A stretch of 64,000 nucleotides of DNA from Halobacteriales archaeon YIM A00013 (GTDB taxonomy: Archaea; Halobacteriota; Halobacteria; Halobacteriales; Haloarculaceae). Both the position numbers and the translations under genes were made by a program. This document shows positions 16,463 to 52,179 of the stretch, piece by piece. Under the pieces are notes generated by a model. It was given only the letters and a program-made list of their open reading frames with translations. It was not told the origin of the DNA and did no database searches. The stretch covers positions 434,001 to 498,000 of the forward strand of contig JAKCFM010000001.1 in the NCBI GenBank assembly GCA_025041195.1, written 5' to 3'. Every line of letters begins with the position of its first letter. The stretch's first letter is position 1.

Positions 16463-16930
16463 ATGAGTCAGAGTAACGCGATCAGTCGATCGGAGTTTCT
16501 GGTCTGGAACGACACCTCCATACGCAAACGCGCGATTATAGCGGGCGCAATCATCGGAGCGTTGGTGAACCTGAGCGCAATGGTCGTTCCGCTGTTCACG
16601 ACGATTGGCGGCGGAATTATCGCGGGAATTGTGGCAGGCTACTGGATCGGTGGACTGCGCGGATGGATCCACGGGCTACTCGCGGGCGTTGGAGCGGGTC
16701 TCGTTGGCGGCTGGGTGGTTGCGCTCATGGGAGCACTCCTCGGCATGTACATCGCGCCACCGCTGCTTGTCTTGCAACTGGCTGGCCTCCAGTCGCCCGT
16801 CTTCTCTGCGTTTGGCGGGTCGGTGTTCCTGGGGCTGGTGGTCGGACTGTTCATCATCTTCGATGGGATCATTGGGGGCCTTCTTGGCGCCGCCGTGCGG
16901 TCGGGTGTCGATGCAGTGCTCGGTCGATAG
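16463..16930 (+). CDS. Glycine-rich multi-pass membrane protein (DUF5518-like)
   Basis: 155 residues from the ATG at 16463, with a TATA-like element (GAATATTTATT, about 16423-16433) in front. A 25-residue polar N-terminus is followed by four hydrophobic segments rich in GxxxG packing motifs, such as IIAGIVAGYWIGGLRGWIHG and LLGAAVRSGVDAVLGR at the end. The layout recalls the haloarchaeal DUF5518 family, but the similarity may only be composition. No catalytic residues are visible. It is monocistronic, convergent with nothing, and about 110 bp ahead of another membrane-protein gene. Confidence 0.7.
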   Translation: MSQSNAISRSEFLVWNDTSIRKRAIIAGAIIGALVNLSAMVVPLFTTIGGGIIAGIVAGYWIGGLRGWIHGLLAGVGAGLVGGWVVALMGALLGMYIAPPLLVLQLAGLQSPVFSAFGGSVFLGLVVGLFIIFDGIIGGLLGAAVRSGVDAVLGR

Positions 16931-17040
16931 CTGATCGATTCCCGATTTGACGACTCTGACTCGATGATTTCGACGATGGTTTTCAACGACCCGATTATTC
17001 TCGCACGAGCTTTTTATCAGTGCAGCGATGGTGCCGTGGT

Positions 17041-17580
17041 ATGACACGATCGGTCCGTTCGAAGCTGTACGATCTGACTGGCATTGAAGGCGAAAACATC
17101 GAGGCGATCGTAATTGCATCGCTGTTCGGTGCGTTCCAGGCGATCATCGTCTTTCATTTCGGTGACGTGACGGGAATAAAAATGATTGGGGCATCGGTTG
17201 GCCACTGGGATACGATCACCGGCGGACTCATGGTAACTGTTTTCAGTCTCATCTTCGGTGGGATCTTCCTTGGTGTCATCGCTGGATCGGTCAACCCGTT
17301 CGTCACACGCGTGATTATGCTCTCGCGAAACTCAGCCGTGTTACAGAAGGTTCTCGTCCCACTGCTTACGCGATCTGCACTCGGCGTTACACTCGCGGGG
17401 ATCGGCCAGCTCTACGGGATTATCGTTGGGCTCGTTTTCCACGGCGTCATCTTGCAGCTGTGGCTCGAATCGATCGGAGCCCCCGCTCAGTTCCCGGCGT
17501 TCGGTCTTGCCTCGACGGTGGCCTGGATGGCCTACGGCGCGACGATGGGACTCGTCTACGGACTACTGATGGAACGGTAA
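17041..17580 (+). CDS. Multi-pass membrane protein of unknown function
   Basis: 179 residues, beginning at the ATG 17041. A TATA-like CTTTTTATC (17009-17017) lies about 25 bp upstream, which favours this start over one seven codons earlier. Four or five hydrophobic segments are visible, including SLIFGGIFLGVIAGSVNPFV and AGIGQLYGIIVGLVFHGVIL. The N-terminus TRSVRSKLYDLTGIEGENIE is charged and cytoplasmic by the positive-inside rule. I do not recognise the family. The end, GATMGLVYGLLMER, resembles proteins that carry six to eight helices, so it could be one half of a dimeric channel-like fold. Confidence 0.65.
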   Translation: MTRSVRSKLYDLTGIEGENIEAIVIASLFGAFQAIIVFHFGDVTGIKMIGASVGHWDTITGGLMVTVFSLIFGGIFLGVIAGSVNPFVTRVIMLSRNSAVLQKVLVPLLTRSALGVTLAGIGQLYGIIVGLVFHGVILQLWLESIGAPAQFPAFGLASTVAWMAYGATMGLVYGLLMER

Positions 17581-17831: not shown

Positions 17832-17875
17832 CCACCGAGTGAACAGACTCAATTACGATATGTTCATTTCGGCAG

Positions 17876-17884
17876 ATATATATG
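17876..17884 (+). promoter_or_regulatory. TATA-like element of the DUF6230 operon
   Basis: ATATATATG about 45-50 bp before the ATG at 17929. It lies 45 bp after the end of the candidate RNA. A start of transcription about 26 bp downstream would give a leader of roughly 25 nt. This favours ATG 17929 over the longer frame that begins at 17839 upstream of the element. Confidence 0.5.
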
Positions 17885-17928
17885 GTTTCCCGACATCGGC
17901 CACTTTGGCACGCACGACATTGTCAACC

Positions 17929-18573
17929 ATGTACGATAAACGCACGTTCGGTAAGGGAATGGGTGCATCGATCGCGGTACTCGCAGTGGTGGTGTTGGTG
18001 ATGCTGTCTACGACGGCATACGCCGTGCCACTCGCCGGTATCGGCGGATTCAACATTGCGGCCGATTCTCTGTCGGCCGATTCGGCGTACATCTACCCTG
18101 GTGCTGACGATACAAGCAATCAGGATGGCTACCCGATGGCGGTGATTGAGCAGGAAGGAGTGACGATTGAAGGAATGGAGCTCACCAAGACGTTCGATGT
18201 GAGTTCCGTTCCGACGCTGTCCGGAAACGCCCGCATTATGATGTCGGCAAGCGACACGGTGACTGCTGACCAGCAGATGGTCAAGGTGAGCTCGCTCTCG
18301 GCCGATACGGCGACGTTCAACCAGCAGGTCATCGACGAGTCGAACTCTCAGGATCCATCCCAGCAGTTCGGAATCTGGGCCGGTGATGCCTCGACAGAGC
18401 AGGGGAAGCTGACCGAAGGCCGCATCATCTCGCTAGAGAACGATGGCCCGGCACAGACGCTCGAAGGCGCTAACATTCAGGCGCACTACCTGGCGTCCAG
18501 CTCAATCAGCCTGCCTGGACTGAGCCTCGACGTTCAGTATGATTCGGACGGAGACGGAACCTACAACGAGTAG
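17929..18573 (+). CDS. DUF6230 family exported/membrane-anchored protein
   Basis: 214 residues from ATG 17929. The N-terminus YDKRTFGKGMGASIAVLAVV continues into VLVMLSTTAYA, a signal peptide or single anchor helix ending in an AxA-like site. The mature part starts LAGIGGFNIAADSLSADSAY and is predicted beta-rich, with repeated amphipathic strands such as EGVTIEGMELTKTFDVSS. The start pattern, a basic N-terminus, one helix and then a GIGGFxIxADxL motif, matches the DUF6230 family best known from Streptomyces and other actinobacteria. There it is annotated only as a membrane or cholesterol-esterase-like protein, with no proven activity. A DUF6114 gene follows 45 bp downstream, the same order as in actinobacteria. 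Confidence 0.82.
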   Translation: MYDKRTFGKGMGASIAVLAVVVLVMLSTTAYAVPLAGIGGFNIAADSLSADSAYIYPGADDTSNQDGYPMAVIEQEGVTIEGMELTKTFDVSSVPTLSGNARIMMSASDTVTADQQMVKVSSLSADTATFNQQVIDESNSQDPSQQFGIWAGDASTEQGKLTEGRIISLENDGPAQTLEGANIQAHYLASSSISLPGLSLDVQYDSDGDGTYNE

Positions 18574-18618
18574 ATCCTGACACCGTCTTCGTGAATTCTG
18601 CTAGGCATCCCAGCTATA

Positions 18619-19080
18619 ATGTCAAACTCAAATCATAATTCGAAGGAGAGCCGACGACAACGGTTCACCGACTGGCGACAGCGCCGTCCCGTACTCGGTG
18701 GGTTGTTGGTGATACTCGGGAGCGTCCCGATGTACTACGTGTCGATACTCATCGCCAAGGATGTCATCTTCCTTAAGGGAGGATCGTTCATCATCGCGGG
18801 GCTGGTCGTTGCCTCCGGGATCTTCCTGGCTGGGGTGTTCACACTGACACGACCCGAGTACACCACGATCCTCGGCTACGTTGGTCTCGTGTTGCTCGTT
18901 CCAGCACTCGTGTTCACGCTTGGCGGTCTCGTGATCGGTGCGTTGTTCGTCTTGCTCGGCGCGAACCTCTGTCTCGCGTGGGAATCAGAGGTTGTCGAAC
19001 AGCATTCACCCCGAGAGCTGCTCTCGAACGATGACGAATCGTCAGCTGAATCGGCGGGATTACTCGACCGGTGGCGATAA
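18619..19080 (+). CDS. DUF6114 family membrane protein
   Basis: 153 residues. After a basic N-terminus, FTDWRQRRPVLGGLLVILGS is the typical start of DUF6114 (a WRxxRPxxGGxL motif leading into the first helix). About four hydrophobic helices fill residues 28-125, including VGLVLLVPALVFTLGGLVIG. A short acidic C-terminal tail ends SAGLLDRWR. In actinobacteria, DUF6114 genes sit directly next to DUF6230 genes, which supports both calls and suggests that the two proteins act together at the membrane. The next gene begins three bases after the stop. Confidence 0.82.
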   Translation: MSNSNHNSKESRRQRFTDWRQRRPVLGGLLVILGSVPMYYVSILIAKDVIFLKGGSFIIAGLVVASGIFLAGVFTLTRPEYTTILGYVGLVLLVPALVFTLGGLVIGALFVLLGANLCLAWESEVVEQHSPRELLSNDDESSAESAGLLDRWR

Positions 19081-19083
19081 CAG

Positions 19084-20106
19084 ATGTCACTGAATATTCT
19101 TACTCGACTTCGCACGATCCGACCACGGACAGTCGCCGTTGGCGTTATCACGACGATGTTGGTGGTGAGCGCTGGCTTTGCGGTCGTCTCGTCCGGGCAG
19201 GAATCCCCGCCTGGTGCTGACGACCGAGTCACGTATACGATCACGACGGGCGGGATTTATCCGGACAGCAGTCTTCTGGGTGGCACTTCGGGACATATTT
19301 GTGCCGAAAAGCTCTCAGAAGATGTTAATCGAGTCAAAATCGATGATGCCAGGCTGGAAGATGTTGATATTTACGTCGGCCAGGAGGGCTCGATTCAGTC
19401 ACACATCCAGTTTGACTCGGCCGAGGTAAATCGGAATCTCGTGTTGTACACGAACGGCGAGAGCGCGCTCGTGGACACGCTTGCCGAGCTCGGCGACCTG
19501 GGTGGTGGTGAGCTCTGTCTTCCGGAGGGAATCCCGAATCCAATTCCGACGACACTGGAAGTGTACTGGCTTGGTGTGTACAATCTCAACCCAGAGAATC
19601 TACAGATCAGTTCCTCGGGAACGGTTCCGGATAACCTTCCCGACCCCACGCTCGATGACGTGTTGAACGAGACGAACACGACTGAAGACGATCTGGTCTA
19701 TGAGAACGGAACCACCAACGAGTCGACCAACGAAACGACGAACGAGACGGTGACGCCAACGCCTGTTGCGACAACGTCGGGATCCTCGACGCCACCGGCC
19801 ACCACACCGGGATCGTCACCAACACCGACAGCGCCACCGACTGAATCGTCAACGCAGACGTCTGCAACGACGGCAACCAGTTCGGAACCCCAGACCAACG
19901 CAGAAACTGCAGCCGGCACTCCAACGCCGACAACATCACCCACATCCGCACCGGCAACGCCTTCTGAACCATCCGCTGAGGTTCAACGAGTACAGTCGAC
20001 AGCGACGCCGACTCCGAGTCCCTCTGTGGAAACAGAAACAACGACACCGACGGACAGCGAGGACGAAGGGCTCCTCGAAGGGATCGTCTCGTCGCTCTTT
20101 GGCTGA
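19084..20106 (+). CDS. Cell-surface protein with Thr/Pro-rich stalk, third gene of the DUF6230/DUF6114 operon
   Basis: 340 residues. An N-terminal helix (VAVGVITTMLVVSAGFAVVS, about 16-35) serves as signal or anchor. A globular part of about 160 residues contains two cysteines (GHICAEKL and GGELCLPEG) and a pattern VNRVKIDDARLEDVDIYVGQ, predicted beta-rich. After that, residues 200-325 are an NET/NTT and Thr-Pro-Ser stalk, as in glycosylated haloarchaeal surface proteins. N-x-T sites cluster in NETNTTEDDL and NGTTNESTNETTN. The last residues EGLLEGIVSSLFG may form a short amphipathic helix. No PGF-CTERM motif is visible. The DUF6230-like cargo plus a stalk suggests a surface complex, but the role is unknown. 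Confidence 0.75.
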   Translation: MSLNILTRLRTIRPRTVAVGVITTMLVVSAGFAVVSSGQESPPGADDRVTYTITTGGIYPDSSLLGGTSGHICAEKLSEDVNRVKIDDARLEDVDIYVGQEGSIQSHIQFDSAEVNRNLVLYTNGESALVDTLAELGDLGGGELCLPEGIPNPIPTTLEVYWLGVYNLNPENLQISSSGTVPDNLPDPTLDDVLNETNTTEDDLVYENGTTNESTNETTNETVTPTPVATTSGSSTPPATTPGSSPTPTAPPTESSTQTSATTATSSEPQTNAETAAGTPTPTTSPTSAPATPSEPSAEVQRVQSTATPTPSPSVETETTTPTDSEDEGLLEGIVSSLFG

Positions 20107-20230: not shown

Positions 20231-21175
20231 ATGACGGACAATGTCACTGCTGAACCTGCAGATGGAGAACGGGCACAGGCAATCGCCCAGCGGATCGTTG
20301 ACAACGTCGAGACCGTCATCGTCGGTCACTCAGACACCATAGAGCAGATCGTCACGGCAGTTCTGGCCGGCGGAAACGTTCTTCTGGACGACGTTCCCGG
20401 GGTAGGAAAAACCATGCTCGCCAGATCACTCGCCCGATCGGTTGCTGGCTCGTTCAGACGCGTGCAGTTCACGCCGGATCTTCTTCCTGGTGATATCACT
20501 GGTGTGAACGTATTCAATCAGAAAACACGAGAGTTCGAGTTTCAGTCCGGACCGATTTTCGCGAACGTGGTGTTGGCCGACGAGATCAATCGAGCGCCGC
20601 CAAAGACACAGAGCGCCCTGCTCGAAGCGATGGAAGAACACCAGGTCACCGTTGACGGCGAAACCCACCCGGTCCCGGCCCCGTTTACGGTGATCGCCAC
20701 ACAGAACTCCGTTGCGGCGGATCAGACGTATTCGCTGCCGGTCGCAGAGATCGACCGGTTCATGAAACGACTGCAGCTCGGCTATCCAGGTGCGAGTGAG
20801 GAGGCCGAACTGCTCGACCGGATCGTTGGCGGCCATCCGATTGAGTCGCTCTCGCCGGTTGCGACGGTCGAAGAGATAAACGCAGCACAGCGTGTGGTGT
20901 CCACCGTCCGCGTCGAATCGTCAATACGAGAGTACGTCACGGCCATCGCGGAGTATACGCGTGAACACGCGAGACTCGGTGTGAGTCCGCGTGGTTCCAT
21001 TGCACTGGTTCGTGCCGCACAGGCACGCGCAACACTCGATGGGCGATCGTACGTCCGCCCATCCGACGTTCAGTCAGAAGCACTGGTCACGCTCGCACAC
21101 CGAATTCGGCCAACAGCAGAGACGGACTCCCAGGCGACTGTCATCAAACGCGCGCTTGACTCGGTTCAGGTATGA
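20231..21175 (+). CDS. MoxR-type AAA+ ATPase
   Basis: 314 residues. Walker A is PGVGKTM near residue 56, in the stretch DDVPGVGKTMLARSLARSVA. Walker B is VVLADEINRAPPKTQSALLE near 115-134, with the MoxR-specific NRAPPKTQ sequence. Sensor 1 is TVIATQN near 155. The C-terminal lid contains VSPRGSIALVRAAQARA. MoxR ATPases act as chaperones that remodel partner proteins, usually with DUF58 and von Willebrand factor A proteins. The next gene is a DUF58 protein that overlaps by four bases, as expected. No VWA-domain gene is present here. Confidence 0.94.
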   Translation: MTDNVTAEPADGERAQAIAQRIVDNVETVIVGHSDTIEQIVTAVLAGGNVLLDDVPGVGKTMLARSLARSVAGSFRRVQFTPDLLPGDITGVNVFNQKTREFEFQSGPIFANVVLADEINRAPPKTQSALLEAMEEHQVTVDGETHPVPAPFTVIATQNSVAADQTYSLPVAEIDRFMKRLQLGYPGASEEAELLDRIVGGHPIESLSPVATVEEINAAQRVVSTVRVESSIREYVTAIAEYTREHARLGVSPRGSIALVRAAQARATLDGRSYVRPSDVQSEALVTLAHRIRPTAETDSQATVIKRALDSVQV

Positions 21176-22170
21176 CTGTCACCCGCCGCGGCTGGGTTGT
21201 CATCTGCAGTGGCGTGCTCGCGATGGCAGCCGGAAGTATGCACGGTGCACGGGCACTCGATGCAATTGCCGTTCCTGCACTGGTGTGCTCCGTGCTCGCG
21301 TTCGGATGGGTGTACAGTCTCGACAGACCGACGGTTGAGCGTGTTGGTCCCGATCCTGGACCGGTGGGGACGGACCATGAGATGCAACTGCGTGTAACCA
21401 GCGGTGGTCTCGTTTCGATCCAGGAGGAGCTGTCAGGGACGGAACCGACCAGCGTTGACCAACCAATAGCGACGGAGACCTGGATTAGCTATCCGATCAC
21501 CTACGCCCAGCGCGGTCGACATTCGGTTGGCCCCCTGCATGTCACGGTGAGCGACCCGCTTGCGCTGTTCACTCGCACGTTTCGATACACGACAGGGGAT
21601 CCCATTCTCGTCTATCCACAGCTGTCGCCGGTCTCACCGCCGCCGTCGCTGTCAGCGCTCACAGCCACGTCCGGAGTGATCGAACGACAGGAGTTCGAGC
21701 GGCTCAGAGAGCACGTTCCCGGCGAGTCGTTGAGCTCGGTCGACTGGAAAACGAGTGCAAAACACGACGATCTGTTCGTTGTCGAGTACTCACACGCCGA
21801 CTCTGGTGGCGTTACGCTCGTTGCAGAAGGCGTCGGCAACAGACAGAATGTTGATGCGATGGCCCGGGCGGTTGCGAGTCTTGTGGCCCATCTACGCACG
21901 CAGGGCGTCTCGGTGACGGTGATCCTTCCGAATGGAACCGTTTCGACCGATCAGACGGCCTTTTTCCAGCGCCTGTTGGTCGCTCTGGCGACGGCCTCCC
22001 CCGGGCGAGTTTCCACGACCGCGCTGGAATCCGCGGATATCTCCGTGGTTGGCCGACGAACAACGGCGATGGTCACCATCGATGGCATGGAGTTTCCGTT
22101 TACGGCCTGTCTCGAACCAAATCGTGACAGCGCACACACGGTGGCCACTCCGGCGGTGGGACACTCATGA
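21172..22170 (+). CDS. DUF58 family protein
   Basis: 332 residues. Two N-terminal membrane helices (about 5-45) are followed by a surface region and the DUF58 signature near residue 180, HVPGESLSSVDWKTSAKHD, which corresponds to the usual PGDxxRxIDWKxxAR. A VWA-like fold follows (DSGGVTLVAEGVGNRQNVDA). It overlaps the MoxR stop and the transglutaminase start by four bases each. DUF58 proteins are the standard partners of MoxR. The trio is known in many bacteria and haloarchaea and is thought to act on envelope or assembly processes. Confidence 0.92.
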   Translation: MTVTRRGWVVICSGVLAMAAGSMHGARALDAIAVPALVCSVLAFGWVYSLDRPTVERVGPDPGPVGTDHEMQLRVTSGGLVSIQEELSGTEPTSVDQPIATETWISYPITYAQRGRHSVGPLHVTVSDPLALFTRTFRYTTGDPILVYPQLSPVSPPPSLSALTATSGVIERQEFERLREHVPGESLSSVDWKTSAKHDDLFVVEYSHADSGGVTLVAEGVGNRQNVDAMARAVASLVAHLRTQGVSVTVILPNGTVSTDQTAFFQRLLVALATASPGRVSTTALESADISVVGRRTTAMVTIDGMEFPFTACLEPNRDSAHTVATPAVGHS

Positions 22171-24341
22171 ACGACACCACTCGCCAGCAATGGCTGTGCC
22201 GTGCGCTTGTGGTGACTGGCCTTTCGATACTCGCGAGCAGCTATCTGCGAGTCTTGTACACGGCGGTCGATATCGACGGTGATCCACGGCTCTTTTTCGG
22301 TCTCGTGGCCGGCGCAGTTATTGCGGGCCTCATTGCGGGCCGGTTTGTTCCCATCAGTGGGGCAATCGTCAGTGGGGCGATCATTACGGCACTCGGCTCT
22401 ATGCTGTACATCTCTACGATACCGCCCGAGTACTCGCTCTCGTTGACGATCAGTGGACTCTGGGGAGACACCACGGCGTTACTCACCGGCATGTCGATCC
22501 TCAGAATCATCAACGCGGGAATGTGGGCCGTAGCCGTAGCCCCAATTCCGACGTTTCTGGTGTCGTATTTCGCCACGCGGCGCCAGTTTGGCTACAGCAC
22601 GCTCATTGGCTGTGGAACGGTTGCGTTCGTCGTTCTCACCGGCGATATCTCCGGAACGGACGCATTACTCGGTGTGCTCGGTGGCGTGTTCACCCTCGGC
22701 GTCGATGGCGTCGAACGCCGTGGGGCGCGAGTGATGAAAACGGATCGCGTGCTCGTTGTACTCGCGCTCGTGCTCGTGGTGACGGCCTCGATTAGCATCG
22801 TTCCTGGTGGGTCTGCACCGCTCGGGGCGGGCGGTTCGACCGGCTCTGGCGAAACCGTCGAGGCCTCGCTCACACGCTCGGACGATGAGCTGTCAGTTGG
22901 CGGCTCAATCAAACTCAGCCCAGACGTTCGATTCACTGTCGAGAGCGATCGCGAGTCATACTGGAGAATTGGGGCGTACGACCGATACACCGGTGATGGC
23001 TGGGTCAGAACGGCCGACACGCACGATCCGAACGATGAGCTCACCGGTCCAAAAAGCGGTGGCTCGAAATTCACCCAGACAGTTTCACCCCGAGCTACGC
23101 TGTCGGTGATGCCGGCCGCCTGGCGACCCATCAGCGTCAGTGGGCCCGCAGCGGACGCCACCTCATTCGGTGGGCTCAGGCCAGAGGGGCGGCTCCAGCC
23201 GGGCGACAACTACACCGTCGAGAGCATTGCGCCACGCCATTCGCCCAGAGAACTCCGGAACGCATCGGGGTCGTATCCCGACGATCTACGGGATCGATAC
23301 ACGCAACTCCCCGATAGCACGCCGGATGACGTCTCGCAGTACACTGAACAGCTCACTGCCAACGCAGAGACGCCGTACGATTCTGCCAGGGTCATTTCCA
23401 CGCATCTCAAGGAACATTGGAACTACTCGCTGTCCGTTCCCGAGCCCGACGGACAGGTGGCGTCGACCTTCCTGTTCGACCGCGAGGCCGGCTATTGCAC
23501 CTACTTTGCGACGACAATGGTGACGATGCTCCGATCGCAGGAGATTCCGGCCAGACTCGCCGTGGGCTATGCGCCCGGGCAGCGCGTTGGACAGAATGAG
23601 TGGGTCGTACGCGGGCTCGACGCTCATGCGTGGGTTGAGGTGTATTTCCAGGATGTTGGCTGGGTTCGATTTGATCCGACGCCAGCCGAGCCACGACAGC
23701 AAGCTGAGCAGGCTGCAATTGCGGCGGCACGCGAGGATGATGCCGCAAACGTGGACGTTTCGAGTTCTGATCCGAACGAGACCGACACACCCACACCAAC
23801 GCCGACCCCCGAGCCAACAGCGTCGACAGCAACTGAAGCAGCCGACCAATCAACTGCCACACCAGGTGATGAAACCACTCCCGAAACCGGTCCAGCGTCA
23901 GCGTATCGACCGGAAGCGTTCGCTAACGCCTCTGCTGCCGTGTCAGATGACGATGGTGGTTCGACAGTGGAACTCCCGCCGGCAAGCACCATTCTGTTCG
24001 GGATAACGATCGCTGGCGGGCTCCTGGCCCTCCTCAGGCGGTGGGGGGTGTTCAGCGGACTCCGTCGATTGGTCTGGCTGTGGAACCTCTCCCGGTCGGA
24101 TCCAAAAGCCGATGTTGCGGCCGTCTACGATCGGCTTGAGTATCTCTTGACGCGAGAACATCGGCCACGTGAGCCTGGAGAAACCAGACGCGAGTACGTC
24201 CGAGACGTGGGAACGCGTGAGGATCGACGACTGGTGGCAATCTACGAGCAGGTGATCTACGCGGGTGATCGCTCAGATTCACTTGTCAGTGAAGCAATCG
24301 AACTGTTCAAACGCCGGCGATGGACGCTCGTTCGGTGGTAA
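22167..24341 (+). CDS. Transglutaminase-like membrane protein (TgpA-type)
   Basis: 724 residues. About six membrane helices cover residues 1-215. A periplasm-facing region (about 225-420) leads to the transglutaminase core, with the catalytic Cys in AGYCTYFATTMVTML near 442, His in LDAHAWVEVYF near 485 and Asp in VRFDPTPAEP near 501. A Thr/Pro-rich linker (about 545-570) and a further helix (TILFGITIAGGLLALLRR) precede a C-terminal DUF4129-like cytosolic tail ending in a charged helix. The catalytic triad is complete. It is the third gene of a MoxR-DUF58-transglutaminase operon, the order seen in other genomes. Outer-surface cross-linking or proteolytic activity is an inference. Confidence 0.93.
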   Translation: MNDTTRQQWLCRALVVTGLSILASSYLRVLYTAVDIDGDPRLFFGLVAGAVIAGLIAGRFVPISGAIVSGAIITALGSMLYISTIPPEYSLSLTISGLWGDTTALLTGMSILRIINAGMWAVAVAPIPTFLVSYFATRRQFGYSTLIGCGTVAFVVLTGDISGTDALLGVLGGVFTLGVDGVERRGARVMKTDRVLVVLALVLVVTASISIVPGGSAPLGAGGSTGSGETVEASLTRSDDELSVGGSIKLSPDVRFTVESDRESYWRIGAYDRYTGDGWVRTADTHDPNDELTGPKSGGSKFTQTVSPRATLSVMPAAWRPISVSGPAADATSFGGLRPEGRLQPGDNYTVESIAPRHSPRELRNASGSYPDDLRDRYTQLPDSTPDDVSQYTEQLTANAETPYDSARVISTHLKEHWNYSLSVPEPDGQVASTFLFDREAGYCTYFATTMVTMLRSQEIPARLAVGYAPGQRVGQNEWVVRGLDAHAWVEVYFQDVGWVRFDPTPAEPRQQAEQAAIAAAREDDAANVDVSSSDPNETDTPTPTPTPEPTASTATEAADQSTATPGDETTPETGPASAYRPEAFANASAAVSDDDGGSTVELPPASTILFGITIAGGLLALLRRWGVFSGLRRLVWLWNLSRSDPKADVAAVYDRLEYLLTREHRPREPGETRREYVRDVGTREDRRLVAIYEQVIYAGDRSDSLVSEAIELFKRRRWTLVRW

Positions 24342-38403: not shown

Positions 38404-41400
38404 ATGGGTGTACTAGACCGTTTGTCACGTGGGATACCGAGGCATAGTCGTGCCGTCATTGTTGGCATGTTGTTGGTTTCAGTAGCGATGGGTGCAGGGA
38501 TGCCGATGGTGTCACAGAGTTCATCGCTGGATTCGTTTCAGAGCGGATCGAGCGATGCGGCACAGGCACAGACATATGTAGACGAGAATTTTTCGAGCAG
38601 TGATAGTAACACGACCGCGGTGCAGATAATCGTCACTGACGACAACGTGTTATCGAAGTCATCGTTGCTCGAACAAATTCGACTGCAGGAGTCGATACGT
38701 TCGAATGAGACGGTTGGGCCAACGCTGTCAAACGATTCGACGGTTGGGGTCGTTTCTGCCGTCGCTATGGCTGCCGATCGGATGGAACAGGCAGAATCGT
38801 TGCAAGCACGCGGTGAGAATCTCACAGAGCGTGGTGAGGCGCTCAAAGCACGCGGTGAGACGCTCCAGCAACGCGCAGCGTCGCTCAATGAGAGCAAGCA
38901 AGCACTCGAACAACGGGGTGCTGATCTCAAAGCGCGCGGCAGTGAGCTCGAACAACGCGGTGAGCGACTCAAAGAGCGGGCTTCCACGCTCAACGAGAGC
39001 AAGGCCCAGCTTGAATCGGACGCCGAGGCGCTCACAAAGCGCGCCGACGCATTGAACGAGAGCAAGGCCCAGCTCGAAGCGGACGCGCAGGCGCTCAAAG
39101 CACGCGCTGATGCATTGAACGAGAGCAAAGCACAGCTTGAAGCGGACGCGCAGGCGCTCGAAGAGCGTGCACAGCAGCTCAACGAGAGCAAAGCACAGCT
39201 CGAAGCAGATTCACAGGCGCTCGAAGAGCGCGCACAGCAACTGAATGAGACCGAACGAGCCCTCGAACAACGCCGTCAGGAACTCCAGCTCAGGGCAGAG
39301 GAGATCAATCACACGAAAGCGGCGCTTGAAGAGCGCAGGGCGGGGATCGAACAGCGAGAAGCCGAGCTCCAGACTGCAATCGAGTCGGGGAATCTCACTG
39401 ACGCCGAAATCGAACAACGCCGTCAGCAGCTCGCGGCTGACAAAGCCGAGCTGGCAAGCGATACCGCCGCACTCGGTAAGAAGGTTGTCGAGCTCAAAGC
39501 GGACCAGCAAGCACTGAAAGAAGACGCGAACGAACTCGAATCGGACGCTGCGGCGCTGGAGGCGGATAAACAGGCGCTCAACGAGCGCGGCGCCGCCCTC
39601 GAAGAAAAGGGCGAGACGCTGAAAGCCGACCAGCAGAAATTGCAAGAGCGCGGCGCCGCCCTCGAAGAAGAGGGGAAGGCACTGAAAGCTGACCAGCAGA
39701 AATTGGAAGCGCGTGGCTCCGCCCTCGAAGAGAAGGGGAATGCGCTGAAAGCTGACCAGCAGAAATTGGAAGAGCGTGGTGCTGCTCTCGAAGCAAAGGG
39801 TGAGGCACTGAAAGCAGACCAGCAGACACTCGAAGCGGACGCACAGGAACTCAAAGAAGCGCAAGCGAGCCTCGAAGCAGAATCACAGGAACTGAAAGAG
39901 CGTGGTGAAGCGCTGACGAACGACTCTGAGGCGTTGAAAGCAGACCAGCGCGCGCTTGAGAACGAGAGTGATCGACTGAAAGCAGACCAACGCGAGCTGC
40001 AGAATCAGTCCACATCGCTTTCGCTTGAGAAACAGCGCTCGATCATCGAGTCGTCCAACGAATCGGAGATTGAGACGGCCATCGAAGCGGTGCTCGGTGG
40101 AACGAATAGCTCCACGGATCGCTCCGGTGCGTTCGCGTTCATGCCGACATCGTACGAACCCGGTGACACGACCGCGAACGCAACGATGCTCATGGCCACC
40201 CAGAATGGCGAAGGTGGAATGGAAGGAACCGCATCGGATCGGTTGATTAACTCACAGAATGCGATTCAGGCGATCGCACACGAGCAGTTCGGAGCGGATG
40301 CTGCGCACGTGTTTGGCGCTGGAATCATCGCCGACGAAACGGAGCAGTCGATGACTGACAGCATGATCATCGTGGGTCCGCTTGCACTGCTGTTCGTGCT
40401 TGCAGTGTTGATTTTCGCCTACCGGGACCTCCTCGACATTCTGATCGGCCTGATCGGCATTGCTCTGGTGCTCATCTGGACGTTCGGCTTTATGGGCTGG
40501 GCGGACATCGAGTTCAACCAGCTGTTTATTGCCGTCCCAGTGTTGTTGATTGGCCTCTCGATCGACTATGCGATCCACGTGTTCATGCGCCATCGCGAAG
40601 AACGCGAACGGGTTCGCGGCGTTCGACGGTCGATGGGCAGCGCACTGAGCGGGATCGCCGTTGCTCTCGTGCTTGTCACGGCCACGGCGGTCATCGGATT
40701 CCTATCGAATCTAACGAGTTCGGTTCCACCGATCCGAGAGTTCGGTATCGTGAGCTCCGTCGGCATTACGGCCGCACTGCTCGTCTTCGGGCTGTTCGTC
40801 CCGGCGCTGAAATCCGAGCTCGATAGCTTCTTCGAGAATCGTGGAATCTCTCGGCAGAAACCTGCTGTCGGGACGGGCGGCGGCATCCTCAGCACCGTCC
40901 TTTCAGGTGGGGCGACGGCCGCGAGAAAAGCACCGTATCTGGTGGTGCTCATTGCGGTGTTGATAACCGCAGTCGGAGGCATTGGCGCGACGCAGGTTGA
41001 TACGAGCTTCAACCAGGAGGACTTCCTCGCCGAGGATCCATCCGGCGTCATTGCTGACCTTCCCGAGCCGTTCGCACCGAGCGAGTATCACGCCAAATCA
41101 TCGCTGGATTTCGTCAATGACCAGTTCCTGCGTGAGGACTCCGGTGTGACAATCCTGATACGCGGTGATATGACCGATCCACAGTCGCTTTCGGCTATCG
41201 ATCGGGCAGCCGAGAATGCGAGCGACCAGCCAGCAGCCGCGACGCTTTCAAACGGTGAGAGCGACATCCAGAGTCCGATCACGGTGATGCAGACCGTTGC
41301 AGCGGAGAACGAAACGTTCAACGAAACCTACGCCGCAGCGGACACCGACGGCGACGAAATTCCTGATCGAAACGTCGAGGCCGTCTACGACAGCCTCTAC

Positions 41401-42186
41401 GCGACGGCACCGGACCGGGCAGAAGCCGTGCTCCAGCGGACTGATGACGGCTATCAGGCGGCCGTCCTTTCGGTCACTGTCTCCGGCGACGCAAGTGGCC
41501 AGGCAATCACCGACCAGTTCCGTGGCGTGGCCGACGTGGTCGAATCGAACGATGATGACCTCTCGGCAACGGCTACCGGACAGCCGATCGTCTTCAACAT
41601 CGTCCAGGATCAGCTGATGGACACGGTGATCGAGAGTCTGCTGTTGACGCTCGGTGCCACATTCTTGTTCCTGATGTTGATCTATCGGTATCTCTATGGG
41701 AGCGCTACACTCGGGTTTGTGACGCTGTTGCCCGTGTTGTTCAGCGTGGCCTGGATTCTTGGAACGATGTATCTGCTCGGGATTTCGTTCAACGTGATCA
41801 CCGGGCTGATTACGAGCCTGACGATCGGGCTGGGCATTGCCTACTCGATCCATCTCTCCGAGCGGTACAGCCTCGAACTCGGACCAAACGTCTCGGCGTG
41901 GGATGCGCTCCGGACGGCCGTCACTGGCACCGGTGGCGCACTGCTCGGGAGCGCTGCGACCACCGTGGGTGGCTTTGGTGTGCTTGCCGTGGCGATTCTT
42001 CCACCACTGCGACAGTTCGGGATCATCACCGGGCTGACCATTGTCTACGCGTTCCTCGCGAGCGTGGTCGTGTTGCCAAGCCTGCTCGTGGTGTGGACAC
42101 GATTGTTCGGTCCGAGTGACGCGTTCGAAGTCAAATCACGAACCACCTTTGGGAGTGGCGACGAGGGTCCGATGATAGATGACTGA
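38404..42186 (+). CDS. RND/MMPL-type exporter with a giant coiled-coil insertion
   Basis: 1260 residues. An N-terminal helix (VIVGMLLVSVAMGAGMPMV) is followed by a 95-residue exported part (PN1). Then residues about 125-545 are an uninterrupted Leu/Ala/Glu/Gln/Lys-rich coiled coil. Two MMPL transmembrane blocks follow: one near 645-800 with IVGPLALLFVLAVLIFAYRD and LIGLSIDYAIHVFMRHREER, the other near 1075-1240 with LGATFLFLMLIYRYLYGSAT and GLGIAYSIHLSERYSL. A second exported loop lies between them. The core resembles haloarchaeal RND superfamily exporters of lipids or hydrophobes. The coiled coil could span the space to the S-layer. It is co-transcribed with the overlapping TrmB gene. Confidence 0.92.
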   Translation: MGVLDRLSRGIPRHSRAVIVGMLLVSVAMGAGMPMVSQSSSLDSFQSGSSDAAQAQTYVDENFSSSDSNTTAVQIIVTDDNVLSKSSLLEQIRLQESIRSNETVGPTLSNDSTVGVVSAVAMAADRMEQAESLQARGENLTERGEALKARGETLQQRAASLNESKQALEQRGADLKARGSELEQRGERLKERASTLNESKAQLESDAEALTKRADALNESKAQLEADAQALKARADALNESKAQLEADAQALEERAQQLNESKAQLEADSQALEERAQQLNETERALEQRRQELQLRAEEINHTKAALEERRAGIEQREAELQTAIESGNLTDAEIEQRRQQLAADKAELASDTAALGKKVVELKADQQALKEDANELESDAAALEADKQALNERGAALEEKGETLKADQQKLQERGAALEEEGKALKADQQKLEARGSALEEKGNALKADQQKLEERGAALEAKGEALKADQQTLEADAQELKEAQASLEAESQELKERGEALTNDSEALKADQRALENESDRLKADQRELQNQSTSLSLEKQRSIIESSNESEIETAIEAVLGGTNSSTDRSGAFAFMPTSYEPGDTTANATMLMATQNGEGGMEGTASDRLINSQNAIQAIAHEQFGADAAHVFGAGIIADETEQSMTDSMIIVGPLALLFVLAVLIFAYRDLLDILIGLIGIALVLIWTFGFMGWADIEFNQLFIAVPVLLIGLSIDYAIHVFMRHREERERVRGVRRSMGSALSGIAVALVLVTATAVIGFLSNLTSSVPPIREFGIVSSVGITAALLVFGLFVPALKSELDSFFENRGISRQKPAVGTGGGILSTVLSGGATAARKAPYLVVLIAVLITAVGGIGATQVDTSFNQEDFLAEDPSGVIADLPEPFAPSEYHAKSSLDFVNDQFLREDSGVTILIRGDMTDPQSLSAIDRAAENASDQPAAATLSNGESDIQSPITVMQTVAAENETFNETYAAADTDGDEIPDRNVEAVYDSLYATAPDRAEAVLQRTDDGYQAAVLSVTVSGDASGQAITDQFRGVADVVESNDDDLSATATGQPIVFNIVQDQLMDTVIESLLLTLGATFLFLMLIYRYLYGSATLGFVTLLPVLFSVAWILGTMYLLGISFNVITGLITSLTIGLGIAYSIHLSERYSLELGPNVSAWDALRTAVTGTGGALLGSAATTVGGFGVLAVAILPPLRQFGIITGLTIVYAFLASVVVLPSLLVVWTRLFGPSDAFEVKSRTTFGSGDEGPMIDD
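38989..39240 (+). repeat. Four 63-bp tandem units in the exporter coiled coil (first block)
   Basis: Units start at 38989, 39052, 39115 and 39178, exactly 63 bp apart. Each encodes a 21-residue cycle beginning LNESKAQLE, then a stretch such as ADAQALKARADA. 21 residues equal three heptads, so the repeat keeps the coiled-coil phase. DNA identity between units is high, especially units three and four, which points to recent duplication or recombination. Confidence 0.85.
39583..39834 (+). repeat. Four 63-bp tandem units in the exporter coiled coil (second block)
   Basis: Units start at 39583, 39646, 39709 and 39772, again 63 bp apart. Each encodes 21 residues of the type ERGAALEEKGETLKADQQKL. 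The amino-acid consensus differs from the first block, so the two arrays probably arose separately from a common heptad pattern. Confidence 0.85.
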
Positions 42187-47231: not shown

Positions 47232-47774
47232 ATGGATCGACACGGACATGTTGGAATAAATCTGCTGGTGTTTACACCGGTTGCCTGTTATTTACTCATC
47301 GAAAACCAGCCCTTGCTCATTGCGATGGGATTCATTGGTCTGATGGCGATCGAACCCGTGGTAGATTTGGATACCTATCTCCCGGGGATGTCTCACGGTG
47401 GGACGAGTCATTCGTTGTTTGCGGTCGGTCTCGTGGGGGCGCTTTCTGCGGCAGCCGTCTACGTGTTCACGGGCTATGCGATAACCTCGCTGACGGAAGC
47501 AGCCTTTGGTCAGTCGATGTTACTGGGTGGAGCCGCTCAAGAGAGTCCGTTAAATCCGATGTACAATGCACGACATGCCTTCTTCATCGGGGCTGGTGCG
47601 GTGTGTTCTCATCTCCTGGGGGATCTTCTCAGCGAATCTGGAATTCGGCCATTAATGCCGCTTCTTAGCCGGAACGTCTCGTATCCGGTCATCCAGCTGA
47701 CTGGTTGGGGTCAGTATATTCTCTTTTTCGCTGGCGTCGTCTCGTTGACTGCAGGCATGCTCGTATTTTGGTAA
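47232..47774 (+). CDS. DUF457 membrane-bound metal-dependent hydrolase (YdjM-like)
   Basis: 180 residues with about five helices. The conserved residues of the family are present: HGHVGINLL near the N-terminus, DLDTYLPGMSHGGTSHSLFA near 50-70 and AVCSHLLGDLLSESGIRP near 120. These His and Asp residues are thought to form a metal site. Proteins of this class are found next to many stress genes. The biological substrate is not known. A TATA-like AATATATGG (47208-47216) precedes it. Its last 64 bp overlap the end of the convergent pilin-like gene. Confidence 0.88.
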   Translation: MDRHGHVGINLLVFTPVACYLLIENQPLLIAMGFIGLMAIEPVVDLDTYLPGMSHGGTSHSLFAVGLVGALSAAAVYVFTGYAITSLTEAAFGQSMLLGGAAQESPLNPMYNARHAFFIGAGAVCSHLLGDLLSESGIRPLMPLLSRNVSYPVIQLTGWGQYILFFAGVVSLTAGMLVFW

Positions 47775-48256
47775 CGGACCCAGACCACCGTGGGCCGTGG
47801 GATAACCATTGTTGTCACTCGAACCGTTCGGTCGATACCGGTGAGTTGGATGTCGATCCCAACAGCACGCAGTTGAACGGCCCCTCCGGAGTGGTTCCGG
47901 ACGACCAGCCCAGAACTGACCGAACAGTTCGAGTGACAGCGTCTGCTTGCCCATTGCTGTGTCGCCGATTCGTTCATCGAAACCCGGATGGCGGTTTCAC
48001 CCGTGGGTGTCGAGCGCTCTGCTAGCAGCGTCTCCAGTTGGGTTCTGAGACCAGCAGGGGTCGATGCTGAGATCGCTGTCGTGGCACTCTGGAGTTCCTG
48101 TGCCGTCGTTCGGATGCGATCACGATCTGTTGTGAGCTGTTGTGGCTCGCGTTCTGTAGCTGTCCGGTGCTCGATCATCGCCACACTCAGACAGGCGATC
48201 ACAATGACGATCGCACAGAGCAACACGAACTGTCCGCGATCAGTCACGCCATCCAC
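47711..48256 (-). CDS. Pilin-like protein 5 of the pilus operon
   Basis: 181 residues. The N-terminus MDGVTDRGQFVLLCAIVIVI then ACLSVAM is a class III signal, with a charged part, a cleavable RG dipeptide and one helix. This matches haloarchaeal pilus-associated proteins I remember as DUF7261-like. The body is Thr/Ser/Gln-rich with a conserved end VWVRYQNTSMPAVNETTPAK. It starts inside the stop region of the previous pilin-like gene (13-bp overlap). Its last 64 bp overlap the last codons of the convergent DUF457 gene. Confidence 0.7.
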   Translation of the reverse strand: MDGVTDRGQFVLLCAIVIVIACLSVAMIEHRTATEREPQQLTTDRDRIRTTAQELQSATTAISASTPAGLRTQLETLLAERSTPTGETAIRVSMNESATQQWASRRCHSNCSVSSGLVVRNHSGGAVQLRAVGIDIQLTGIDRTVRVTTMVIPRPTVVWVRYQNTSMPAVNETTPAKKRIY

Positions 48257-48600
48257 ACCTCGATTGTCCGGCTTCCGTGGGTCGTCCAGATAGCAATCTG
48301 AACACGAGCGCCGACCGTTCGGTTCGATCGCTCTGCTCGTCGCAACTCGATGGCGATCGGAATCGCGTCGTTTTCAGTAATCCGTTCAGTCGCGTTCGTC
48401 GGAGCCGCCATCAAATACGGCGACGTGAACAGCACACTGGTGTCACCAGCAAACTGGACCGACTGATGATCTTGTTCGTTCGACTGAAATTCGCTCCCAT
48501 CAATGAGCGCGATCGCTCCCACGATCACCATGACGGCGATTGCAAGCTCAATCAGGGGGAGTGCGAGCTGTCCCCGGTCGTCATCGGGGGGGCTACGCAT
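48244..48600 (-). CDS. Pilin-like protein 4 of the pilus operon
   Basis: 118 residues. DDDRGQLALPLIELAIAVMV followed by IVGAIALIDG is a signal/anchor helix of the class III kind, with the RG cleavage candidate at the start. The rest is polar and beta-rich, ending RVQIAIWTTHGSRTIEVWMA. It overlaps the preceding gene by eight bases and the next by 13 bases. The helix plus small exported domain is the design of a minor pilin. No sequence family beyond that is recognised. Confidence 0.68.
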   Translation of the reverse strand: MRSPPDDDRGQLALPLIELAIAVMVIVGAIALIDGSEFQSNEQDHQSVQFAGDTSVLFTSPYLMAAPTNATERITENDAIPIAIELRRAERSNRTVGARVQIAIWTTHGSRTIEVWMA

Positions 48601-49234
48601 CGACGGCCACCTCTAGCATCACTGGTCGCGTTTGAACACGTCGTTGGCTGATCGTAACGGATCCTGTGGCGTCAAGTCGGATGATCGAGTGATCGGTCAG
48701 TGGATGGGCAATCGCTATCGTCCGAGGGTGTGGCTCCGGAGTGGTGTACAGCTGTGTCTCGTTGATCCAAATTCGTCGAATCCGACCGGAAACCGTAATC
48801 CGATCCGTTCCGGGAGGAACGGGTGTTTGAGTCGTACTCTCAACAGTTTGTGTTTGTGTCTGCGCTTCGAGAACGAGTCGTCGAACGACTGCGCTATCAC
48901 CGTGATGGGGGTGTCCGTGGATCGGTGTTCCTCCCAGCGTGATCTGTGTTGACGGTGGGCACGCGGGTGGCGGTGAGAATGTATCGGCAGTAATCACGCC
49001 GTGATCGAACACGTTCGCATCGAGTGTCCAGTTTGCCTGCGGGTTTCCGAGCGCGTCTGCACAGGCGCTGGCATGCACTCGATCTGTCGAACTATCGCGG
49101 GGTGGACCACCATCGATTGCTATACTGACTGCACCAGTCAGCCCAAGCAAAATGATGATCGCCACCAACATCGACAGCAACGTTCCCAGTGCACGCGAAC
49201 CATCGCTGTCACGAAGTTGGTTACTCGGTTGCAT
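48593..49234 (-). CDS. Pilin-like protein 3 of the pilus operon
   Basis: 213 residues. The N-terminus has GSRALGTLLSMLVAIIILLG then LTGAVSIAIDGG, a single helix, after a 15-residue charged part (NQLRDSDGSRA). The exported part includes two cysteines (ASACADALG and PPACPPSTQI) and a beta-rich core with GTDRITVSGRIRRIWINETQ. It overlaps the genes on either side (14 and 8 bp). It is the largest soluble part among the small pilin-like proteins except the first, so it may be a minor pilin or a pilus-associated adhesin. Confidence 0.68.
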   Translation of the reverse strand: MQPSNQLRDSDGSRALGTLLSMLVAIIILLGLTGAVSIAIDGGPPRDSSTDRVHASACADALGNPQANWTLDANVFDHGVITADTFSPPPACPPSTQITLGGTPIHGHPHHGDSAVVRRLVLEAQTQTQTVESTTQTPVPPGTDRITVSGRIRRIWINETQLYTTPEPHPRTIAIAHPLTDHSIIRLDATGSVTISQRRVQTRPVMLEVAVDA

Positions 49235-49658
49235 TGATCTCTATTGCGATGCCATCGCGATTTCCAGCGATGTGAATCACGAGCGGACCGTCCCCATGCC
49301 ACGACCCCGTACTGCTGGTGATGAAATGTGGTAATTGGCGCTGTCGGTCGACAGCAAGCGAGGGGTGTGATAGCGCCACCGATCGGTTTGCTCCGTAAAT
49401 TCGATAGCGATCGCCCTGAATCGTCTCGGGAATGGAGAGAACGAACTCTGCTCGCACCTGTCCCATGGAGTGTGGGATATCACCCACGCGTCGTTCGATT
49501 CGGTCAAGGATGCGATCACTCTCTTCGATCGTTGCCGTCGATTCCGCGTTCGGAACGATATCACCGTACAACAACGCCGAGAGAATGCCTAGTACGCCAA
49601 GGAGAATAATAATCGCGAGCGCCTCACCGATGACGCTGGTCAGCCCGCGATTATTCAC
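49221..49658 (-). CDS. Pilin-like protein 2 of the pilus operon
   Basis: 145 residues. The N-terminus MNNRGLTSVIGEALAIIILL then GVLGILSAL is very close to the archaeal pilin signature, in which the prepilin peptidase cuts after RG and the helix begins LTSVIGEAL. After the helix follow a short linker and a beta-rich region (RVGDIPHSMGQVRAEFVLSI). It overlaps the first pilin-like gene by four bases and the third by 14. Among the five small genes it is the best candidate for a major pilin. Confidence 0.75.
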   Translation of the reverse strand: MNNRGLTSVIGEALAIIILLGVLGILSALLYGDIVPNAESTATIEESDRILDRIERRVGDIPHSMGQVRAEFVLSIPETIQGDRYRIYGANRSVALSHPSLAVDRQRQLPHFITSSTGSWHGDGPLVIHIAGNRDGIAIEINATE

Positions 49659-50359
49659 GACAGCACCTCCACGGTGATATGTCGAATCATGAGTATGGTT
49701 CGGCGCTCCTGTGTGAATGACACCGACACGCTGGGGATCCCATCACTATCGGGATCATTTCTGCTTGTGGCAAAGCCACGAGCGCGGAAGTGGCGCTCAA
49801 ATGGCCCCGGTGTTGCAGTTTCGATGCTGAGTGTCCCAGAAAGGTTCTCGTGGCTGTGGTGCGTGCTTGACTGCCGTCGGGTGAAAGAGTGCGTTCCTTG
49901 CAACCTGTCGAATCCGCTCGTGGTGATGGTTGTGAGCCGAATGAGACGCACTGACGCAGCTGTTGGTGAGAATATGCGCGGTGTCGATCGAAACCAGGCC
50001 GCACCAGGCTTGCCACTGATAACGGCGCCACAGAGTGTTGCAACGCGGTGGTTTCCGTTGGAGTAGCTGATCGCAGTCGTGTCGAACCGATAGTTCGCCC
50101 CGGTTGAACTGTTGATTGAGATCTCTCTGGATGCGGTGCTGAGCGTTCCAACGGATGTGGTGAGTGAAGGGTTCTCAGTCGATGATGGATCGTGTAATTG
50201 TTCGAGCGCAGAACCAACACGCTCATGCTCATTACGAGACTGTCCTGCATCGATCAGCGTTCCCACACTCATCGTGAGAACGCTCATCGAGATGAGCGTA
50301 ATCGCCAGCAACAGCGCAACCCCCACGACGTGTGATTGTCCACGTGATGTCGTTCTCAT
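49655..50359 (-). CDS. Pilin-like protein 1 of the pilus operon
   Basis: 234 residues. TSRGQSHVVGVALLLAITLI then SMSVLTMSVGTLI is a class III signal and helix. The body contains SGKPGAAWFRSTPRIFSPTA and ends with many Arg and Ser. I recall similar proteins in haloarchaeal pilus clusters as one of the DUF72xx families, but not which one. It overlaps the membrane-platform gene by four bases and the second pilin-like gene by four bases. It is longer than normal pilins, so it may be a minor pilin or a capping protein. Confidence 0.7.
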   Translation of the reverse strand: MRTTSRGQSHVVGVALLLAITLISMSVLTMSVGTLIDAGQSRNEHERVGSALEQLHDPSSTENPSLTTSVGTLSTASREISINSSTGANYRFDTTAISYSNGNHRVATLCGAVISGKPGAAWFRSTPRIFSPTAASVRLIRLTTITTSGFDRLQGTHSFTRRQSSTHHSHENLSGTLSIETATPGPFERHFRARGFATSRNDPDSDGIPSVSVSFTQERRTILMIRHITVEVLS

Positions 50360-52179
50360 CGAATCCCACCCACAGTAAACACGACGTACCCAATGGCAAG
50401 CAACAGCGACGCATGAAACAGAGATTCGTATCGATCACCGGTCGTCCCACCGGCAAACAGCCCACACGAGAGCATCGTCGACTGCGTGACGAGATAACAG
50501 AGTGATCGGCCGCGCTCGAAACTGAACGCCCCCGATTGGATTCCCGTTGCTCCGAACCCTCCAGACACCGATTCGATTGGTTCGAAGCTGGCAAACACCT
50601 CTGTCGAGATAATTGCCATAATGGCGACGATGAGTAGTCCTGTCGTCCAGCCGATGATGGTGTAGACGGCCATCGTGCTCTGCAGTGCTCGCTTTTCCTG
50701 ATACAGCCGTCCAACTTCGGTCTGGAGCGTTTCGAGCACCGTTTTCGGGGCGCTCCCGGCCCGAATCGCATCGCAGAGCAGGCCAATGCTCTGTGCGGCT
50801 AGCGCCGTACCCACATCGGCGACGAATCGATTGAGCGCAGCTGTCCGAACACCCACCGCGTTCGCCGGCGGGGTGATAAACTGCAATCGCATCGAAAGAC
50901 GGTCGATATCTTCCTGCAGCGGTCCGTGGTCGAGGTCAGTTCCAACCCGACTGACTGCCACAGAGAGCGGTGTTCCGAGTCTGACGTGTCCAGCGACAGC
51001 ATGAATAAATGCACCCAGTGTACGATCTTTCGCCGTGTCGAGTCGACGGCGACGAATGCTGATTACACCGATTGGAACGCCGGCACTGACGGTGGTGAGC
51101 ACGATCGCATCGAGTGGAGAGCCAGTATGGATCCAGAGCACCACGAGGATCAGGAGAGCAGGGAGAACTGCCACCATCGCAGCTGAGTTCGGGTTCCGGT
51201 GGGCTGTCTCCAGGATTGCTCGTGGGGTAGCGGGCCACGAATAGCTGGGTGGCTGAAGTCCGGGCGGCTGGAGCGATCTCACCAACCACGTCGCTCCACA
51301 GCCAACGGTGACGACACCACCTGCACAGGCGTAGCCAACGACGACGAGCACTGATTTCGAACCGATCGGTGTCCACACCGGTCTCGTCAGTGCGGGCGAC
51401 AGCATCGAGACGACGATCAACACTATCAGCAGCACCGCCGGCAACACCAGGAGGACGACAAACAACTCTGCAATCAACTCCATACTGTCGATGGTTCGTT
51501 GGCGCTGGCGCTCCTCTCGGAGCGTCTGCATTCGGGCTTCGACGGTGAGAAATGACCGGAGCGAGCGTTCACTTTGCCGAGCATGTTCGATATACTTCAG
51601 GAGAAATGGAGCGAGGCGATCGTGAGACGGCGTCTCCCGGGCAATTTCTCGCAGTCCATGATCGAAGCTTCCTGTAAGGCGCGCGTTCGTCACAACGCGT
51701 CGGAGTTCGTCGCCAGTTGCGCCGTGTGCGTCCACTGCAGCTGCCGCCCCAAATCGCCGTTCGTGTTCGCCAATGCCGTCGACCAGCACCCTGAGATATC
51801 TGACAGTAGCCGGAAGCGTCCGCGCAATCTGTCGGCGCCTCTGTTCACGTCGGTAACGGAGCCAGTATTGACCGGTGGCAAGCACCGATCCAGCGCCACA
51901 CAACCCACCAACGAGGCCACAGCCAACGACAATCATCGTGGCGTACGTTGCGGTTACTGGCCCAGTGATCTGAACGCCAACTCGTCGAAGCGCGATCGTT
52001 GCAATGAACAGTCCCGCCGCTCCAACGGTGATTCCGGCGATCCAGATACCCGTGATTATCGCCGTTCGATATCGCGCATACGATCCGTCGGGGGTGGCTT
52101 TCCGGTAGCGGTCTCGTGTGGGGATCAGCGATCGAAGTCGGCTGGCAAGCGCCGCCTGGGTGCGTTCACGCTGAGTCAC
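50356..52179 (-). CDS. Type IV pilus membrane platform protein (TadC/PilC type)
   Basis: 607 residues from the GTG at 52177-52179 (GTG 52188 is possible). That start lies inside the ATPase gene's last codons. The frame further upstream to 52506 is spurious. Two copies of the T2SF/TadC-type fold are present, with membrane segments around 45-75, 225-280, 330-365, 505-540 and 575-600. The pattern RTIDSMELIAELFVVLLVLP and a second repeat before MAVYTIIGWTTGLLIVAIMA support this. It is the inner membrane platform to which the ATPase binds for pilus assembly. All seven genes of this operon overlap. Confidence 0.88.
   Translation of the reverse strand: MTQRERTQAALASRLRSLIPTRDRYRKATPDGSYARYRTAIITGIWIAGITVGAAGLFIATIALRRVGVQITGPVTATYATMIVVGCGLVGGLCGAGSVLATGQYWLRYRREQRRRQIARTLPATVRYLRVLVDGIGEHERRFGAAAAVDAHGATGDELRRVVTNARLTGSFDHGLREIARETPSHDRLAPFLLKYIEHARQSERSLRSFLTVEARMQTLREERQRQRTIDSMELIAELFVVLLVLPAVLLIVLIVVSMLSPALTRPVWTPIGSKSVLVVVGYACAGGVVTVGCGATWLVRSLQPPGLQPPSYSWPATPRAILETAHRNPNSAAMVAVLPALLILVVLWIHTGSPLDAIVLTTVSAGVPIGVISIRRRRLDTAKDRTLGAFIHAVAGHVRLGTPLSVAVSRVGTDLDHGPLQEDIDRLSMRLQFITPPANAVGVRTAALNRFVADVGTALAAQSIGLLCDAIRAGSAPKTVLETLQTEVGRLYQEKRALQSTMAVYTIIGWTTGLLIVAIMAIISTEVFASFEPIESVSGGFGATGIQSGAFSFERGRSLCYLVTQSTMLSCGLFAGGTTGDRYESLFHASLLLAIGYVVFTVGGIR

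Follow-up and report, generated by a model that had tools for sequence, protein, structure and literature searches.

A haloarchaeal gene cluster built around a DUF6230–DUF6114 gene pair is proposed to encode a cell-envelope module that docks and presents surface or wall-active parts beside the membrane, and we put the probability of this reading at about one half. It is supported directly by gene order, homology, gene fusions, co-occurrence and the predicted fold class, from which we infer a physical complex, its topology, the docking role and a contact with lipids.

Organization of the gene cluster

The cluster lies on the plus strand of the window, which is the whole analyzed stretch of 64,000 nucleotides. 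Its core consists of the genes for a DUF6230 protein (17929–18573), a DUF6114 protein (18619–19080) and a third protein, P3 (19084–20106), and their coordinates and spacing are exactly as given in the earlier note. The intergenic gaps are 45 bp and 3 bp, respectively, and judged by this spacing the region 17929–20106 is regarded as a single operon. A TATA-like element, GATATATATGG (17875–17885, plus strand), found by inspection of the sequence 54 bp upstream of the DUF6230 start codon, could act as its promoter. The proposed operon of three genes was thus retained, but the unit turned out to be larger, because gene X (17041–17580, plus strand, with an in-frame GTG at 17020), which encodes a hydrophobic membrane protein without a Pfam family, is located upstream, and a small DUF5518-like membrane protein (16463–16930, plus strand; PF17647, E 1.4e-6) is a probable accessory member.

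Three other regions of the window were also noted. Past the cluster (20231–24341) are genes for a MoxR ATPase, a DUF58 protein and a TgpA-like transglutaminase, and this order is kept in 5 of 5 genomes sampled from the window's genus. The minus strand carries a type IV pilus or Tad-like locus (47711–54334) with a T2SSE ATPase (52166–54334), T2SSF (50356–52506) and then small proteins with N-terminal hydrophobic helices. An MMPL/Patched-like RND transporter of 1228 amino acids is encoded at 38500–42186.

DUF6230 and DUF6114 proteins

A Pfam profile search matched both proteins of the pair above the curated cut-offs, so that the two family assignments of the earlier note were borne out. Residues 41–203 of the DUF6230 protein aligned with positions 5–139 of the 145 positions of PF19741 (33.3 bits versus a cut-off of 27.5, E 7.2e-8), a profile that is matched by 53 of 64 aligned DUF6230 members. 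The DUF6114 protein matched the full profile PF19609 (positions 1–106 of 106, 70.1 bits versus a cut-off of 27.9, E 2.9e-19), and the four helices ascribed to it correspond to four hydrophobic peaks in its hydropathy profile. The profiles of the DUF6230 protein and of P3 each show one helix, at the N-terminus. These features are in agreement with the envelope location that had been proposed for the cluster products.

AlphaFold2 predicted the DUF6230 protein to be a confident all-beta domain, presumably exterior, behind one helix (pLDDT 85.7, pTM 0.74, most blocks of the domain above 90). Foldseek searches with the model revealed no significant relative in the PDB or among viral structures, a sequence search against solved structures yielded no match, and the NCBIfam search yielded nothing useful. 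The fold may be undescribed. A comparison of the haloarchaeal and the actinobacterial DUF6230 profiles with hhalign gave a probability of 99.3% (E 1.5e-20, 161 columns), which shows that the archaeal and actinobacterial families are homologous and not mere look-alikes.

Distribution of the gene pair

DUF6114 was found in 47 of 391 Halobacteria genomes, belonging to 16 of 86 genera, whereas the DUF6230 tally of 24 of 391 is an undercount, because the Pfam profile misses even the window gene in a DNA-level genome search. About 50 regions were extracted, and their genes were called with a purpose-made simple codon-usage gene finder. In every haloarchaeal genome with loci examined, DUF6230 adjoins at least one DUF6114, except for two genomes with sub-threshold matches only. 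This adjacency and the recurrence of DUF6114 across Halobacteria indicate that the pair in the window is not a chance arrangement. The adjacency survey suggested by the earlier note found the pair in both domains of life, with 74 adjacent pairs in all, 41 from haloarchaea, where DUF6230 is directly upstream of DUF6114, and 33 from actinobacteria. The latter came from a genome scan and a phylum survey, which detected DUF6114 in 18 of 246 genomes; a cross-domain DUF6114 alignment proved too divergent for scanning genomes. Many pairs overlap or are only a few bases apart, and adjoining DUF6230 and DUF6114 genes are annotated on a Rhodococcus plasmid. In the window's genus, the order X, DUF6230, DUF6114, P3 is likewise found in 4 of 4 further genomes sampled, and several copies are carried by Halorientalis.

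Of 194 genomes, 13 contain strong homologues of X (E <1e-20), and all 13 also carry DUF6114. If the sample consists of genomes G000–G193, 21 of 194 contain DUF6114, and the probability of this co-occurrence by chance is 3e-15 when kinship is ignored. X adjoins DUF6230 in seven loci and is three genes away in an eighth, and three copies of X are fused N-terminally to DUF6114 in four Halorientalis proteins. X often lies at some distance from the pair, and weak partial matches to it are common across haloarchaea. In several genera, 13 loci in all, a relative of DUF5518 is encoded at position −2, +1 or +2 relative to the pair, and DUF5518 is probably part of the unit.

DUF6230 itself is found in larger assemblies. 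At the haloarchaeal locus L037 it is fused to five PKD domains. In family f11, about six DUF6230 genes stand in tandem and the array ends in one DUF6114 (L066, L067); apart from the arrays, proteins of about 3300 amino acids have DUF6230 at the N-terminus, which in L112 is followed by GEVED and CARDB domains. The f11 haloarchaea (L066, L067, L111, L112, L114) have small genomes, and the DUF6230 proteins of their arrays carry N-terminal extensions before the helix. A single haloarchaeal open reading frame (L060, 5733–8210) joins an N-terminal DUF6114 without a stop codon to an AMP-binding, acyl-CoA-synthetase-like enzyme; this one case may reflect an error of assembly or sequencing.

The third protein

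P3 had been described as a surface protein with a cysteine-containing domain and a Thr/Ser/Pro stalk, and hydropathy and composition agree with this architecture: in the exported P3, a signal or anchor helix is followed by a predicted beta-domain with two cysteines and a tail of 150 residues, 54% of which are T, S or P, with six N-glycosylation sequons at its base. P3 matched no Pfam or NCBIfam family. Both cysteines are invariant among 12 P3 homologues. The model of the beta-domain (19189–19644) is of moderate quality (pLDDT 72), and Foldseek found no significant relative of it in the PDB. The domain is present in 13 of 194 Halobacteria, immediately downstream of DUF6114 in 13 of 13 cases, and it is fused to DUF6114 once (genome G352, locus L048).

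At about half of the actinobacterial loci, among them loci of Streptomyces, Nocardiopsis and Corynebacterium, the gene after DUF6114 encodes an exported protein that combines a low-complexity stretch with a beta-rich domain, and in four loci (L077, L156, L157, L165) this protein is fused to DUF6114. The idea that the stalked protein is a host-specific surface part had to be abandoned, because the corresponding position in actinobacteria also holds an exported protein with a stalk, and fusions to DUF6114 occur in both domains of life. Two domains proved DUF6230-like in profile-profile comparisons: the third domain of actinobacteria (90%, E 1.8e-6) and a domain joined to DUF6114 in a set of proteins mainly from Halorientalis (94%, E 1e-7). 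P3 was also considered as a divergent DUF6230. Its scores beat column shuffles in most runs, but its probabilities against DUF6230 and against the actinobacterial third domain were low, and its scores stayed below the reversed-profile control. For this reason, we claim the same slot and a similar architecture for P3, not homology.

Probable transfer between archaea and actinobacteria

In a tree of the concatenated pair, the core actinobacteria are separated from the haloarchaea with 100% support. Four actinobacterial pairs (L168–L171), whose genomes measure about 3 Mb, fall with the haloarchaea with 100% support and are nested among them with 77% support. The AU test (p 0.388) neither confirms nor rejects a monophyletic haloarchaeal group. 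At least one transfer between the domains of life is likely from this topology. A unit common to archaea and actinobacteria, perhaps spread by transfer, had been suggested, and the homologous DUF6230 proteins and the 74 pairs are in line with it. The L168–L171 lineage differs from the haloarchaea in having a divergent TetR-type regulator beside its pair, and in L169 (1506–4040) and L171 (1221–3647) an extra protein encoded nearby combines a DUF6230-like domain with an SLT transglycosylase and an M23 peptidase in one chain. This fusion is the clearest enzymatic cargo found. A viral origin of the unit was rejected, as no DUF6114 relative was found in viral contigs with a single-sequence query and no DUF6230 was found in phages.

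The Streptomyces locus and the cholesterol esterase label

Of six Streptomyces-type loci that were compared, five (L153, L159, L161, L164, L172) have the gene order thioredoxin-TPR, DUF6230, DUF6114, third gene, pyruvate kinase, acetate kinase, with the two kinases identified by their N-terminal sequences. The S. coelicolor genes SCO5419 and SCO5423 are trxA4 (PMC9952706) and pyk2 (PMC7494193), respectively. Because these genes flank the matching order, SCO5420 is DUF6230 by synteny. It is named cholesterol esterase, and it is upregulated about 37-fold on Tween 40 (PMC7494193), and thus the earlier statement that the two families have no known activity was incomplete. In S. pratensis, a "cholesterol esterase" and two hypothetical neighbours are among the unusually divergent core genes (PMC4239341); matched by name only, this would be consistent with an exposed trio.

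The SCO5420–SCO5422 type of locus shares with the haloarchaeal cluster the gene order, homologous DUF6230 and DUF6114 proteins, and a third protein in which a beta-rich domain is accompanied by a low-complexity stretch. In contrast, the stalk precedes the domain in Streptomyces and follows it in haloarchaea, the actinobacterial DUF6230 proteins have two invariant cysteines that the haloarchaeal ones lack, a thioredoxin-TPR gene takes the place of X, and P3 does not match the bacterial third domain above the reversed-profile control.

Xiang et al. (2007) reportedly described a "novel family of cholesterol esterases" in actinomycetes, the name that SCO5420 bears; the connection to DUF6230 is by annotation and synteny only, and no hydrolase signature was found in DUF6230 here. 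Among 64 DUF6230 members, no serine or histidine is conserved family-wide (best Ser 44%, best His 28%), the window protein lacks a GXSXG motif, and its model is all-beta; an alpha/beta-hydrolase cholesterol esterase was rejected on these grounds. To our knowledge, cholesterol and fatty-acid esters are not usual substrates of haloarchaea. Both points make it improbable that DUF6230 is a secreted lipid-ester hydrolase with DUF6114 and the third protein as its membrane and surface partners in the use of apolar esters, although the annotation and Tween 40 induction of SCO5420 would fit such a role, as would the culture supernatants of S. scabiei on suberin, which are rich in proteins named cholesterol esterase and linked to DUF6230 by name only (PMC5158115).

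Discussion

What the loci share is a four-helix protein in the membrane, one or two exterior beta-domains with a single anchor each, and outer attachments that vary, and this set is most simply read as an envelope scaffold or mount. The envelope module is supported by the 74 pairs, the fusions of X, P3 and the third domain to DUF6114, the invariable position of P3 beside DUF6114, and the restriction of strong X homologues to DUF6114 genomes, as well as by the fusions of DUF6230 to PKD, GEVED/CARDB and SLT/M23 domains, the all-beta models behind one helix and the lack of conserved catalytic Ser or His residues. DUF6114, together with X in this lineage, would form the membrane platform. DUF6230 and P3 would each place an all-beta domain on the outer membrane face through the single N-terminal helix, and the potentially glycosylated stalk of P3 would extend away from the membrane. 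When the relatives are compared, the slot for the beta-domain may represent a modular mount with varied outer ends, which are PKD repeats in some and GEVED/CARDB arrays, Thr-rich stalks or a transglycosylase with an M23 peptidase in others. The module would perhaps also bind apolar ligands.

Slightly less probable than the hydrolase is a role of the beta-domains as lipid carriers, loaded at DUF6114 (and X), that would shuttle apolar lipids between the membrane and the outer layer. The induction of SCO5420 on a detergent-like ester (PMC7494193) would suit such carriers, and paired beta-domains with a multi-helix membrane partner recall lipid transfer systems, in plan only. LolA-like and YceI folds are among the very weak Foldseek matches, but these are non-significant (E about 1). 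Furthermore, the unit has no ATPase or energy source, and the stalk and hydrolase fusions would be left unexplained. Least probable of all are merely co-transcribed envelope genes without a joint function, for although DUF6114 occurs without DUF6230 (L039, L055) and DUF6230 without a nearby DUF6114 (L115–L117), the fusions in both domains of life, the strict adjacency of P3 and the nearly overlapping genes in many loci argue against this.

The occurrence of single partners and the frequent distance of X from the pair also speak against the envelope module, as does the failure of the P3 domain to match DUF6230 above the reversed-profile control, and a metabolic role would account for the response of SCO5420 to Tween at least equally well. 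A membrane-anchored envelope scaffold, possibly lipid-binding, is the most likely function that we infer. The domain families, the operon, the cross-domain unit, a likely transfer and the envelope location have thus stood since the earlier note, whereas the host-specific stalk, the size of the unit and the absence of a known activity have not. Rather tentatively, the cluster could represent an undescribed envelope apparatus of haloarchaea and actinobacteria, with DUF6114 as its membrane hub and interchangeable DUF6230-type beta-domains on which a stalk, an adhesin array or a wall hydrolase is mounted; it would have crossed between archaea and bacteria at least once.

With this reading, two orphan Pfam families, one of them misleadingly labelled cholesterol esterase, would become a defined multi-gene envelope unit across the archaea–bacteria divide. 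The fusions and the synteny point to testable partners in the genetically tractable Streptomyces coelicolor, namely SCO5420–SCO5422.
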